A stretch of 64,000 nt of DNA from Halopiger xanaduensis SH-6 (GTDB taxonomy: Archaea > Halobacteriota > Halobacteria > Halobacteriales > Natrialbaceae): the NCBI RefSeq assembly GCF_000217715.1, contig NC_015666.1:1190270-1254269 (forward strand). The letters run 5' to 3'. Of the stretch, positions 14,218 through 19,165 are shown piece by piece. Position numbers and translations under genes: made by a program. Position 1 is the stretch's first letter; each line of letters opens with the position of its first letter. Below the pieces are notes generated by a model. The model worked only from the letters and a program-made list of their open reading frames with translations. It made no database searches and was not told where the DNA came from.

Positions 14218-15153
14218 CTAACTCCCGTCGCCGTTGACTTCCTCGCGCAGCGTCTCCATCTCGACGACCCGCTCGGCGTGGGCGTTGTGCTGGTGGATCG
14301 ACTCGTCGTTGGACTGTTTCATCGTGACGACCGCGTCGTCCTCGAGATGGTCAAATTCCTCGACGACGCCCTCGGCCATCGAGCGCACGCAGTCCTCGAC
14401 GAACTTCGCGTCCGCGTGGGCCGCGTAAGTCATGTGGTCTTCGTCGGGCCGTTTCGCGAGGTTGTAGATCCGCGCGCTCATCGAGTCGCGGGCGACGTCG
14501 ATGATGTCGTTCAGGTCGACCTCCGGATCGCCGTTGGCCTCGACGGTCAGCGTCGCGTGCCCGCGCTGGGAGTGGCCCGGTTGGGGCACCTCGTCTAAGA
14601 ACTCCGTGATCGTCTCCTCGTCGACGCCCAGGTCCTCGAGCGTCTGCTTCGCGCGCGCGGCGGACATCCCCTGCGAGCAGGGACAGACGGTCATGCCCGT
14701 CACTTCGGCGCCGATCTCCTCGCGGGTTCCCTCTTCCGTCGCCGTCGCGGCCGCGATGATGTCGACCGTGTGCTGGGTCTCGCGGTCGCTGGCAGGCGTC
14801 TGCTCGCGGCGCATGAACTCTGCCTCCATCGAGACCTGCGCCTTCGAGGTGTAGTCGTGCTTCTCGAGGAGCCGCTCGGCGGCGTCCCCGCAGACCTCCT
14901 CGACGCGGTAGGCCTCCTCTCGGGTTGCGTCCTCGAGGATCTCGTCGATGACCTCCATGTTGCGGCTCATGTCCGCGCCCTTGCGCCAGGCGGGGAGGTC
15001 GACGAAGACCTCGAACTCGGCGGTGAGGACGATCGGGCGCTTGTCCTCGCGGGCGATCTTGACGAGCTTTTCGACGCCGGTGACGCCGACCTGGCTCAGG
15101 CCGACGGTGACGTCGGGCGACGTTGCCTGCACGTCCGGAAGCTGGTGACTCAT
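14218..15153 (-). CDS. mptA: GTP cyclohydrolase MptA (FolE2 family)
   Basis: A 311-aa enzyme of the COG1469 class. It converts GTP to 7,8-dihydroneopterin 2',3'-cyclic phosphate, the first step of archaeal tetrahydropterin (tetrahydrofolate/methanopterin) synthesis, using Fe(II). Recognisable features are [14 protein letters not shown] near the N-terminus, the [10 protein letters not shown] strand, the metal-site motif [12 protein letters not shown] (Cys plus nearby His and Glu), and [13 protein letters not shown]. The start is at MSHQLPDVQ, and the length matches haloarchaeal MptA. It is convergent with the TrmB-like gene and monocistronic. Confidence 0.93.
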
Positions 15154-15331: not shown

Positions 15332-15388
15332 CTTTAAGTACTTCTGGTCACAAGGTGAAGATACGACGGAGACACGCCGTTCTCGAGG
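15332..15388 (+). repeat. 57-nt promoter/start element, copy A
   Basis: First of three copies of a block running from CTTTAAGT through CTGGTCACAAGGT to CGTTCTCGAGG. TTTAAG (15333-15338) is TATA-like. The position that is ATG in copies B and C is ACG here (15363), so no leaderless start is available; read from that codon, the peptide would begin TTETRRSRG. The gap it sits in (15154-15572, 419 bases) also holds copy B and no recognised gene. Confidence 0.75.
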
Positions 15389-15450
15389 CGCAGTTATTCC
15401 GGACAGCTACGGCTCGGTCGATCGCTGGATCCGCTCCGAGCCCATCGTCG

Positions 15451-15508
15451 CTTTAAGTGCCTCTGGTCACAAGGTGGAGCTATGACGGGAGGACGGTCGT
15501 TCTCGAGG
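15451..15508 (+). repeat. 58-nt promoter/start element, copy B
   Basis: Second copy, 119 bases after copy A. TTTAAG (15452-15457) is followed 25 bases later by ATG at 15482, the ideal leaderless spacing. The frame begins MTGGRSFSRN and stays open for about 60 codons across the 3' end of the convergent lipoprotein gene. One base is extra relative to A and C; removing it gives MTGDGRSRG, matching copy C. Confidence 0.75.
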
Positions 15509-15572
15509 AATCTACCGGCGAGCCGCCGCTCTCGATACCGTCCGCCGACCCGCGCGCTTTCTGCCGCCCCGA

Positions 15573-16346
15573 TCACGTACCGGGACAGCCGAGTTCGTAC
15601 CGATCCTCGCTCGGTACCGTCGGCACGTCGATCGAGGCGGGTTCGTCGTACGCCGAATAGCGCATCGTGATCGACGCGGTCGCCGTCTCGTCGTTGCCGG
15701 AAACTTCGAACTCGACGCTCGTCTCGAGCGGACGCCCCGTCTCCGCGTCGAGCCAGAGCGTCGTGCTCGCGTCCTCGAGGTTCGGCCCGCCGAAGTCGAA
15801 TCGGGAGCCGCCGATGCGGCCATCGTCGAAGGCGTCCGCCGGCGGCGAGCCGGTGAGCCGGATCGCCTCCCGGCCGTCGTACGTCTCGGTGCCGTTCCAG
15901 TGGAGGTCGCCGTCCTCGAACAGCGAGAGCTGCGAGTGGGCGGGGGTGTCGTCCGGCCAGGGATCGCTTTCGGCTTCGTCTTCGTCCTCGTCGAGTGACT
16001 CGACGTGCCAGCCGTCCCACGGCGCCGGACACTGTTCGCGACGCGTGTCGCCCTCGAGATATGACTCGAGGGTCGTCCCGTCGATCGTCGCGTTCGTGTA
16101 CATCGTTTCGTTCGCGAGGTCGACGGCGCCGAACACGGAGCCGTCGATGTGCTGGTGGTCGGCGGCGACGGATAACTCGCCTTCGTACCGGTAGGTCGCC
16201 GTCTCGTCGAGGGCTGCCCGTGCGTCCTCGAGGGCCTCGACGGCGCGCTCGTCTCTCGTCGGGTCGTCGCCGAGGGCGCTACAGCCGGCGAGGGAGACGA
16301 CGAGGATCAGACTCACCGTCAGTGCGCGGAGGGCGGGGCGGCGCAT
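15573..16346 (-). CDS. secreted lipoprotein, LolA-like/outer-sensor type, unknown function
   Basis: A 257-aa protein with a lipoprotein signal (MRRPALRALTVSLILVVSLAGC, lipobox LAGC with Cys 22). The mature part begins with an acidic helix (ERAVEALEDARAALDETATYRY), followed by alternating beta strands and ends CPGT. This is the pattern of haloarchaeal lipoproteins resembling LolA/LppX half-barrels (strand pairs such as TTLWLDAETGRPLETSVEF). Lipid or ligand carriage is an inference from fold likeness only. Copies B and C of the repeated promoter element flank it in direct orientation, on the opposite strand. Confidence 0.65.
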   Translation of the reverse strand: MRRPALRALTVSLILVVSLAGCSALGDDPTRDERAVEALEDARAALDETATYRYEGELSVAADHQHIDGSVFGAVDLANETMYTNATIDGTTLESYLEGDTRREQCPAPWDGWHVESLDEDEDEAESDPWPDDTPAHSQLSLFEDGDLHWNGTETYDGREAIRLTGSPPADAFDDGRIGGSRFDFGGPNLEDASTTLWLDAETGRPLETSVEFEVSGNDETATASITMRYSAYDEPASIDVPTVPSEDRYELGCPGT

Positions 16347-16449
16347 CGTACTGTTAGCCCGATTACCAGTTCCGGTACAAATAATTGCGGTAGTCCGCTC
16401 GAGTCGTGCGGTGATCGTCGGCGACCGACTGCGACCGACCGGATCGTTT

Positions 16450-16506
16450 CTTTAAGTGCTTCTGGTCACAAGGTAGAGCTATGACGGGAGACCGCCGTTC
16501 CCGCGG
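16450..16506 (+). repeat. 57-nt promoter/start element, copy C
   Basis: Third copy. TTTAAG (16451-16456), CTGGTCACAAGGT, then ATG at 16481 with 24 bases between the TATA-like box and the ATG. The frame begins MTGDRRSRGGALLLQRK and remains open a very long way antisense to the methylthiotransferase gene. The surrounding gap (16347-16630) holds nothing else I can support. Confidence 0.75.
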
Positions 16507-16630
16507 CGGTGCATTACTGCTGCAACGTAAACTGCTCAGCGGTAGCGCTGATTTCGGTTTCCGTCCAGTACGAACAGAGCTCTACGAAAACGGAAAGCGA
16601 CTAGGACGTCGCTCAACGGCGCTCCCTTGT

Positions 16631-17884
16631 CTACACCGGGTCGCCGAACGCGTACATCGTCTCGTGGGCCGTCACCTCGAGGTCGACGAAGTCGCCGGGC
16701 TCGAGGCCGTGGTCGCTGGCGTTTTGAACGATGATCTGGCGATACGCCGAGTCGCGACACTTCACGGAGTCGGCGGTGCCCTCCTCGACGACGAGACAGT
16801 CCTCGCGGCGTTCGCCGACCATGTCTTCGTAGGCGTCGGCGACGATCTCGCGCTTGAGTTCGCTCATCTCCTTCGAGCGTTCCTTCTTGACCGTGCCGCC
16901 CAGCCCCTTCATCTCGGCGGCGTCGGTGCCGGGGCGCTTCGAGAAGCGGGTGACGTTGATCTTCTCCGGGCGCGTCTCGCGCAGGAGCGCCATCGACTGC
17001 TCGTGGTCGTGTTCGGTCTCGGTCGGGAAGCCGACGATGAAGTCCGTCGAGAGCGTCCAGTAGTCGAGGCGGTCGTCGAACGTCTCGACGACCTCGACGT
17101 ACTCCTCGACCTGGTGCTGGCGGCGCATGTCGCCGAGCACGTCGTCGCTGCCCGACTGGACGGGTGCGTGCAGGAAGTCGTAGAGTTCGTCGTGTTCGGC
17201 GAAGACCTCCGCGAGTTCTTCGCGGATGCCGTGGACCCCCTTCGGGTTGGCCATCCCCACGCGGACCCGGAAGTCGCCCTCGATCTCGCAGATGCGCTCG
17301 AGCAGTTCGTGGAGTTTGCGCTCGCCCGTGTCCCAGCCGTAGACGCCGGTGTCCTGGCCCGTAATCCGGATTTCTTTGGCGCCGGCGTGGATCAGCGCGC
17401 GGGCCTTCTCGACGTTTTCCTCGACCGGCGGCGAGTCGATCTTGCCGGTCGCCTCCTTGGTGATGCAGTACGAGCAGTTGGACATGCAGCCCCGTGCGAT
17501 CGGCAGGATGCCGACGACGCCGTCCAGAATGGGTTCGGCGTCGGGCGTCGTGGTCGGGCACTCGCCGTTCGTGACGGCCTCGGGGACCTCGTCCCAGTGG
17601 AGCACCTGGCCGTCGATGTCGGCCGCGCGGAACTCTTCGCCCTGCGCGAGGGCCATGCAGCCGGTGATGAACAGGTCTGCGGTCTCGTCGGCCAGTTCCT
17701 CGGCGCGGCGGAGCATGTTCCGCTCGGTCTTCTCGACGACGGTACAGGTGTTGAGGATGGCGACGTCGGCCACCTCGGGGCCGTCGACCCGGTAGTGGCC
17801 GGCATCGCGGAGCCGTCGCTCGATCTCGCGGCTCTCGCCGCGATTGGACGTGCAACCGTACGTTTCGATGTGGTACCGGGCCAT
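16631..17884 (-). CDS. tRNA (t6A37) methylthiotransferase, archaeal MtaB/e-MtaB type
   Basis: A 417-aa radical SAM enzyme that adds a methylthio group to t6A37 of ANN-decoding tRNAs. Domains: UPF0004 N-terminus with three Fe-S cysteines (YGCTSN, NTCTV, TGCMA), the radical SAM core with RGCMSNCSYC (CxxxCxxC) and GQDTGVYGWD, and a C-terminal TRAM domain (ECRDSAYRQIIV region to the end; the start of TRAM is at about residue 355). The phrase FSKRPGT is typical of the family. The archaeal e-MtaB branch is indicated by length and by HIETYGCTSNRGE at the start. Confidence 0.9.
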   Translation of the reverse strand: MARYHIETYGCTSNRGESREIERRLRDAGHYRVDGPEVADVAILNTCTVVEKTERNMLRRAEELADETADLFITGCMALAQGEEFRAADIDGQVLHWDEVPEAVTNGECPTTTPDAEPILDGVVGILPIARGCMSNCSYCITKEATGKIDSPPVEENVEKARALIHAGAKEIRITGQDTGVYGWDTGERKLHELLERICEIEGDFRVRVGMANPKGVHGIREELAEVFAEHDELYDFLHAPVQSGSDDVLGDMRRQHQVEEYVEVVETFDDRLDYWTLSTDFIVGFPTETEHDHEQSMALLRETRPEKINVTRFSKRPGTDAAEMKGLGGTVKKERSKEMSELKREIVADAYEDMVGERREDCLVVEEGTADSVKCRDSAYRQIIVQNASDHGLEPGDFVDLEVTAHETMYAFGDPV

Positions 17885-18043
17885 TCGTCGTTGTCCATTC
17901 TCGGGAACGCGAGGCCAAAAGCCCGACGGATCCCGCCGCTGCCGGTCGCGCTCTCGCCGCCCGTCGGCTCCCGCTCACCGCGACGGCCGCTCCTGTCGCG
18001 TCCATTTGTTTTTCAGGAAGACTTTTACTGCCGTATCCGAGAC

Positions 18044-19165
18044 ATGAAACAACGCCCTCCCCGCATGAGCCTCCGTCTGCGAATCTGCGGCGTCCTCGCC
18101 GCCCTCGTCGCGATCAACGCCCTGTTCGTCCTGGTCCTGCTGTGGGCCTACGGGGTCTTACTACCCGGAGTCGTCGCTGGAACGATCGTTTTCCTCCAAC
18201 ACGGGACGTTCCCGCTCGATTTCCTCCGGCTGCCGGTTTCGTGGCCGACGGCCGGCCTGCTGATCATGGGCTTTCTCCTCGCGCAGGTGTACTACGGCTA
18301 CCGCCGCGTGCTCTCGGGCACCCGCGCCGGCGACGGCGATCACGACGTCGCCCGTACCGTCCGCCGGTTGGCGATGACCGCCGACGTGCCCGAACCGAGC
18401 GTCCGCGTCATCGACGACGACGAGCCGAGCTGTTACACGGTCGGTCGGCTCACCGACGCGACGATCGTCGTCACGACCGGGCTCGTCGACACCCTCGACG
18501 CGGACGAACTCGAGGCGGTGCTCGCCCACGAAATCGCCCACGTCGTCAACCGTGACGTGACGCTGATGACGATCACGACGCTGTTCGTCGAGATCGCCGA
18601 CCAGGCGTACCACTGGGCGCGGCTGGCCCGCCGGGCGCTGTTCGACCCGCGCCAGCTATCGACACGCGGCCGGGTCGCGGTGCAGTGGTTCCTCCCGCTG
18701 GTCGCGCTGACCTACGTCTTCGTCGCGCCGCTGCTGTGGGTCTTCCCGACGATCGCCGACTGGGCCACGCGGACGCTCTCGCACGCCCGGGAGTTCGCCG
18801 CCGACGACGCCGCCGCGCGGATCACGGGCAAGCCCCTCGCCCTTGCGACCGCGCTGGTGACCCTCGCCGAGGCGACCGAAACGCCAGAAACGGACCTCCG
18901 CACGGCGAAAACGCGCGCGCTGTGTATCGTCCCGACCGAGCTCGTCACCGGCCGGGCGGTCGGTTCGGCGTCCGACGTAGCGGACGGAGCGAGCACGACG
19001 ACGCCGGCCGAGCGCCGCGAGACCGTCTCGGCGTGGCTCGAGGGAGCGACGCCGGCGACGGCGACGACTGCTCCGACGGGAACCGGTACGCATCCGCCGG
19101 TTAACCGTCGACTCGAGCGACTGCAGACGATCGCCGCCGACCAGGAACTGGAGGGATCGGTATGA
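18044..19165 (+). CDS. htpX: HtpX-like M48 family membrane metalloprotease
   Basis: A 373-aa zinc protease. Two N-terminal TM helices (about 9-50 and 66-85) precede a catalytic domain with HEIAH at residues 162-166 and the third ligand Glu in the HAREFAADD segment. Two more hydrophobic segments (about 205-245) lie between them, as in HtpX. It would degrade misfolded membrane proteins from the cytoplasmic side. MSLRLR at 18065 is an alternative start. Its stop overlaps the next ATG by 4 bases (ATGA), opening a five-gene overlapping run. Confidence 0.88.
   Translation: MKQRPPRMSLRLRICGVLAALVAINALFVLVLLWAYGVLLPGVVAGTIVFLQHGTFPLDFLRLPVSWPTAGLLIMGFLLAQVYYGYRRVLSGTRAGDGDHDVARTVRRLAMTADVPEPSVRVIDDDEPSCYTVGRLTDATIVVTTGLVDTLDADELEAVLAHEIAHVVNRDVTLMTITTLFVEIADQAYHWARLARRALFDPRQLSTRGRVAVQWFLPLVALTYVFVAPLLWVFPTIADWATRTLSHAREFAADDAAARITGKPLALATALVTLAEATETPETDLRTAKTRALCIVPTELVTGRAVGSASDVADGASTTTPAERRETVSAWLEGATPATATTAPTGTGTHPPVNRRLERLQTIAADQELEGSV

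Follow-up and report, generated by a model that had tools for sequence, protein, structure and literature searches.

Why does one short element, built of a TATA-like box, a fixed core and a start-like A, stand three times around a lipoprotein gene of Halopiger xanaduensis? The three copies, all on the + strand, were found again at the predicted places when the window (the whole stretch of DNA that was analysed, 64 kb) was searched anew. Copy A (15332..15417) has the TATA-like box CTTTAAGT at 15332-15339, the core TCTGGTCACAAGGT at 15343-15356 and a putative start A at 15363 (ACG); copy B (15451..15536) has the box at 15451-15458, the core at 15462-15475 and the putative start A at 15482 (ATG); copy C (16450..16535) has them at 16450-16457, 16461-16474 and 16481. 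The start A of each copy was placed from the spacing of the TATA box. Judging from the consensus of 202 copies described below, the leader is conserved in all three as well (in copy A to about +55), and because all three match the consensus core exactly, they are not decayed. Within the 64-kb window, CTGGTCACAAGGT has three matches with zero mismatches (at 15344, 15463, and 16462), and TTTAAGTNNNNCTGGTCACAAGGT, searched at a tolerance of 3 mismatches, hits three places, which are copies A, B, and C only; the same search gave 0 matches in 100 dinucleotide-preserving shuffles of the 64 kb.

The copies are not confined to the window. The H. xanaduensis genome holds 13 of them: besides the three in the window, a cluster about 47 kb away contains eight, and a different contig carries the remaining two. 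Exact matches to the core were also found in 62 stretches of other haloarchaeal records, nearly all from Natrialbaceae, and these records often contain several copies each at a spacing of 100-150 nt. This distribution across its own genome and other haloarchaea refutes the view that the element is only a local tandem duplication. Our comparison covered 202 non-identical Natrialbaceae copies together with 123 copies of other haloarchaeal families, numbered from the conserved A of TACGA/TATGA (15363, 15482, and 16481 in the window) as the putative start, +1. In the 202 copies the conserved unit spans about -40 to about +55, and upstream conservation ends at about -41. Its order is CC (-40/-39), TTTAAGT (-30 to -24), NNY, TCTGGTCACAAGGTRNAGMTA, the conserved A, and two transcribed blocks. 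TTTAAGT, TC, G, A, and AA are near-invariant in both sets, and TTTAAGT at -30 to -24 of the near-invariant A has the position of an archaeal TATA promoter, whose box lies about 26-30 nt 5' of the start position. The stretch from -20 to -7, between the TATA box and the start, is TCTGGTCACAAGGT or a lineage variant of it and is unusually conserved; in the 202-copy consensus it is followed on its 3' side by RNAGMTA, whose last A is +1, and then by YGAMGGG. Conservation is looser in downstream block 1 (+1 to +22), which reads ACGACGGGARGNCGNCGTTCTC (form 1) or ACGAAGGGCTTTTCGCGG (form 2), and in downstream block 2 at about +40 (YAGCGACGG). The CGTTCTCGAGG-like end named in the original prediction is indeed present, but as part of this looser transcribed block of variable length and not as a fixed end. 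A comparison with ordinary leaderless promoters yielded 46 usable sequences, many of them orthologues, and nothing was drawn from that set.

Shared first codons reading MTGDRRSRG had been proposed to follow the start, which would make the copies leaderless microproteins or the remnants of a mobile or multicopy gene. No conserved reading frame was found. The codon at the start position is ACG in 142 of the 202 Natrialbaceae copies and ATG in 52, the block-to-block distance is not divisible by three, and the three frames behind the element are open to a similar extent, none of them standing out by length; for these reasons we ruled out a microprotein family. What such readings have on their side is the ATG of those 52 copies and the open frames that continue behind it, the latter owing to G+C-rich DNA, while the copies hold syntenic places beside mptA, rlaP, and a gene that we call X in many genera, and we regard remnants and microproteins alike as highly improbable. 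An open frame of 894 codons (16481-19165, +) begins at copy C, runs antisense to an mtaB-like gene and then into a gene for an M48-type-protease-like product; it was rejected as a single gene, being an artefact of G+C-rich DNA.

The genes downstream of the copies are different and unrelated in different lineages, and the flanks are divergent. We sorted 384 copies by what follows them, which was a gene in 176 cases, a further copy in 144, and neither in 64; these numbers are approximate since they depend on our simple gene caller. Genes in the same orientation and at a consistent distance are X, rlaP, menA, serS, and dsbA-like genes (the names menA, serS, hisG, and dsbA-like are our own reading of the sequences). 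In Natrialbaceae and several other families, X is immediately preceded by one to three copies that share its orientation, even where the identity of X is only ~48-60%. In some genomes (G102 and G041), the closest copies detected lie on the 3' side of X and are directed toward it. In five genomes of one family, the start A of an unlinked copy lies 95-107 nt ahead of the menA start codon; Halorussus-type genomes (L188-L192) have an unlinked copy ahead of a menA-like polyprenyltransferase gene, with a menC-like gene next in line, in 5/5 genomes examined. Unlinked copies also stand before serS in one genus. In genus g57 (L118, L119, L120, and L133), copies precede the seryl-tRNA synthetase gene at one end and X at the other, so that the genes between the two ends are enclosed by outward-pointing promoters. 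A dsbA-like gene lies behind the element in one family, and hisG and sfsA (the latter by Pfam) are single cases.

Another gene of these arrays in Natrialbaceae encodes an RlaP-type nucleotidyltransferase: rlaP lies inside the promoter arrays in most members of the family. In the H. xanaduensis cluster about 47 kb from the window, copies flank such a gene (L072:5501-6430, C3:1157.5-1158.4 kb of the genome; PF10127, E 1e-29) and stop before X (L072:4076-4885, minus strand), the second gene of the cluster. We considered RlaP as the partner of the element and rejected it, because other families have the element and X without RlaP, and these lineages leave X as the common factor. The arrays thus resemble RlaP (PF10127) RNA-repair loci in containing rlaP, but differ from them in that RlaP is dispensable for the element and X, and divergent RlaP loci (e.g., L088-L094) have no element.

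The usual order in Natrialbaceae is a thioredoxin-like gene, trmB, mptA (reverse), copies, rlaP, copies, and X. In H. xanaduensis this array is split, with copies A, B, and C beside mptA and with rlaP and X 47 kb away, which explains why no gene belongs to the copies in the window. The gene at 14218..15153 (minus strand), which we take to be mptA (GTP cyclohydrolase), is the conserved neighbor that marks, by synteny, the ancestral site of the rlaP-epsilon cluster, where epsilon stands for the predicted product of X discussed below. The suggestion that the copies are decayed 5' ends of a multicopy gene is thus right about a history at this site, which is that of the relatives' cluster, but not about decay. 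The lipoprotein gene (15573..16346, minus strand; its match to NF053532 is below the cut-off) lies between copies B and C and is absent from the cluster of the relatives. A transcript from copy B would head for the 3' end of this gene, and one from copy C, which lies past it, would run toward the 3' end of an mtaB-like radical SAM gene (16631..17884, minus strand; PF04055 and PF00919), a bystander. Halorussus-type genomes offer a parallel, as gene-less copies there face the 3' end of X (L187:3536-3667 and L205:3244-3383), just as copies A and B face the lipoprotein gene and copy C faces mtaB. In a sister genus (L244 and L245), two genes that we read from their sequences as ABC-transporter-like lie inside the array between mptA and rlaP, with copies on both sides.

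The element and X occur together. Among 146 genomes of the order, X (a strong homologue, E < 1e-50) is present in 70, and the element was found in 67 of these 70 and in 0 of the 76 genomes that lack X, so that every element-bearing genome (67/67) has X; the exceptions that have X without the element are G088, G109, and the incomplete G139. The association has a Fisher p of ~1e-38, a value that overstates independence because the co-occurrence clusters with descent and X is in physical linkage with most of the copies. Part of the co-occurrence is trivial, as copies adjoining X would vanish with it. Unlinked copies, which are found in many X-bearing genomes, are absent from the X-negative genomes too, which indicates more than the joint loss of a gene with its own promoter. 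X and the element are gained and lost together within families. The same holds inside a single genus (f14 g38), where two genomes (G040 and G065) have both and a third (G014) has neither. A viral origin was considered and rejected: X was not found in phages, and the lone IMG/VR match (L184) lies in a tail-like gene on a contig without haloarchaeal appearance and is probably due to chance.

What, then, is X? Its relatives on plasmids of Halorussus, Halococcus, and Halocatena are named "DNA-directed RNA polymerase subunit epsilon" in RefSeq, and X shows 56-61% identity to four RefSeq proteins of this name. Going by this naming of its relatives, X is predicted to be the epsilon subunit of RNA polymerase. 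Distant X-like proteins (~29-35% identity) are encoded on the plasmids NZ_LN831305, CP031300, and NZ_CP119793 (H6, H11, and H13); they are mostly annotated as hypothetical, one being named epsilon. An early guess that X is a "conditioned medium-induced protein" was dropped, as no supporting paper was found. Halobacterium salinarum and a subset of haloarchaea possess epsilon as an extra polymerase subunit, and the enzyme transcribes native templates efficiently when it contains epsilon. The subunit was already known in 1983, and its biological relevance is still called enigmatic (PMC8305020).

X has no sequence match in Pfam, NCBIfam, or PDB, no TFIIB match (PF00382) was obtained among the 20 members of X scanned, and a profile comparison of X with the cyclin repeats of the TFBs of its own genome showed no similarity (hhalign probability 0.5-1.2%). 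Two AlphaFold models of X, of moderate mean pLDDT (62 and 67), show a single cyclin fold for which TFIIB-type repeats rank first. The Z scores against TFIIB repeats are 10.7-11.9, below the caution level of ~13 for helical folds, with a Foldseek E of ~1; for this helical fold, yeast TFIIB gives Z 11.9 and an rmsd of 2.4 over 96 residues, and Pyrococcus TFB gives Z 11.0 and an rmsd of 3.2 over 101 residues. Judging from these models, X may work like a TFIIB domain, but its sequence does not place it in the TFIIB/TFB family.

TFIIB-type domains touch DNA directly downstream of the TATA box, at the BREd. Because the element is strictly coupled to X, its core lies 3' of the TATA box, and X has a predicted cyclin fold, we propose that the copies form a dedicated promoter family of haloarchaea, recognised by the epsilon-bearing polymerase and probably autoregulatory, of which A, B, and C would be extra gene-less members; we give this reading somewhat better than even chances. 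The epsilon-carrying polymerase would contact the DNA just 3' of the TATA box through the TFIIB-like cyclin domain of epsilon, and this contact with the core would select the promoters of the element. These promoters would serve epsilon itself, often the RNA-repair-type nucleotidyltransferase RlaP, and a few lineage-specific genes, and the extra gene-less copies would give short leader transcripts. Copies A, B, and C would have been left beside mptA when the rlaP-epsilon block separated from it. What we observed is the element family with its conservation, its placement before X and other genes, its co-occurrence with X, and the synteny; from this we infer where transcription starts, that epsilon recognises the promoters, in which direction it regulates them, and what the gene-less copies do. 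The original prediction is thereby supported in part: of the options it offered, a promoter for one particular TFB or regulator fits the divergent flanks, the several unrelated downstream genes, and the strict coupling to a candidate factor, X.

Archaeal repressors commonly bind between the TATA box and the start, which is where the conserved stretch sits, and the element could instead be the operator of a classical repressor, either X or a separate DNA-binding protein. X would then repress its own gene, the gene-less copies would be titrating decoys, and epsilon would not be a selectivity factor. The linkage to X is equally strong under this reading, and the tandem gene-less copies adjoining X, which recur in several families, look like titration arrays. 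The joint conservation of the TATA box, the start region, and a 55-nt leader exceeds what one operator needs, however, and the predicted fold of X, at the moderate confidence of its models, is a TFIIB-like cyclin fold and not a repressor fold. We therefore consider an operator rather unlikely, if still worth bearing in mind.

The tandem copies could also be genes for small non-coding RNAs, transcribed from a promoter of the X/RlaP type and targeting mRNAs or the RlaP enzyme in trans. Tandem copies retain the blocks at +1 to +22 and at about +40 no less well than other copies do (block 2 is present in 40% of the copies leading to another copy, in 28% of the other copies, and in 6% of shuffles), and rlaP is flanked by copies in many genomes. 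The structural tests point the other way. The transcribed part showed no excess folding stability over shuffles (mean z -0.23 to +0.15), and no covariation was seen in a swap test, where exchanging 5' and 3' parts between copies gave no destabilisation; hence we see no conserved RNA structure, and hairpins at +1 that had been spotted by eye were lost in swap tests and shuffles. No oligo-T terminators were enriched after the leader, and Rfam gave no credible match around the copies. Antisense pairing of gene-less copy RNA with the X leader was rejected as unconvincing, being barely better within than between genomes (a marginal difference of 1.2 kcal/mol). We regard small RNA genes as improbable, although the tandem copies, given that they retain the transcribed blocks, may still act as small RNAs or by titration.

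Known systems resemble this one in part. The epsilon subunit of Halobacterium (rpoeps, OE_1279R) is like X in the RefSeq name of its relatives (56-61% identity, as above) and in its distribution over a subset of haloarchaea (PMC8305020), but we found no paper in the open-access literature that ties a promoter element or a regulon to epsilon. The system recalls TFB/TFIIB with the BREd, in that X is predicted to have one cyclin fold nearest to TFIIB repeats and the core is directly 3' of the TATA box; it differs in that X has one repeat only, lacks both a Pfam TFIIB match and profile similarity to its own TFBs, and pairs with a core longer and more specific than the BREd. Sigma-type autoregulated regulons and the multiple TFBs of Halobacterium share the multicopy promoter with a fixed core before the gene of the factor and a small set of other genes, whereas here a polymerase subunit with a lone cyclin domain would be the partner, many of the copies stand in tandem without a gene, and the unit includes a conserved leader.

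Factor-specific promoters are already a known kind, and the element family appears new as far as the present analysis shows. Its restriction to genomes with the predicted epsilon gene points to a control circuit of the transcription machinery that has not been described before. It is possible, at somewhat less than even chances, that epsilon is a selectivity subunit consisting of one TFIIB-like domain and has a promoter class of its own, recognised by way of the core 3' of the TATA box, through which it controls itself, rlaP, and a small lineage-variable regulon, with short leader RNAs arising from the tandem arrays; the presence of rlaP in the arrays may link this circuit to RNA repair. If true, archaea would have here their own equivalent of factor-specific promoters, one that works through a single TFIIB-like domain. 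As far as we found, the element is the first concrete candidate DNA target of epsilon and comes with a candidate regulon, and the role of epsilon in haloarchaea would become testable with a handful of promoters.
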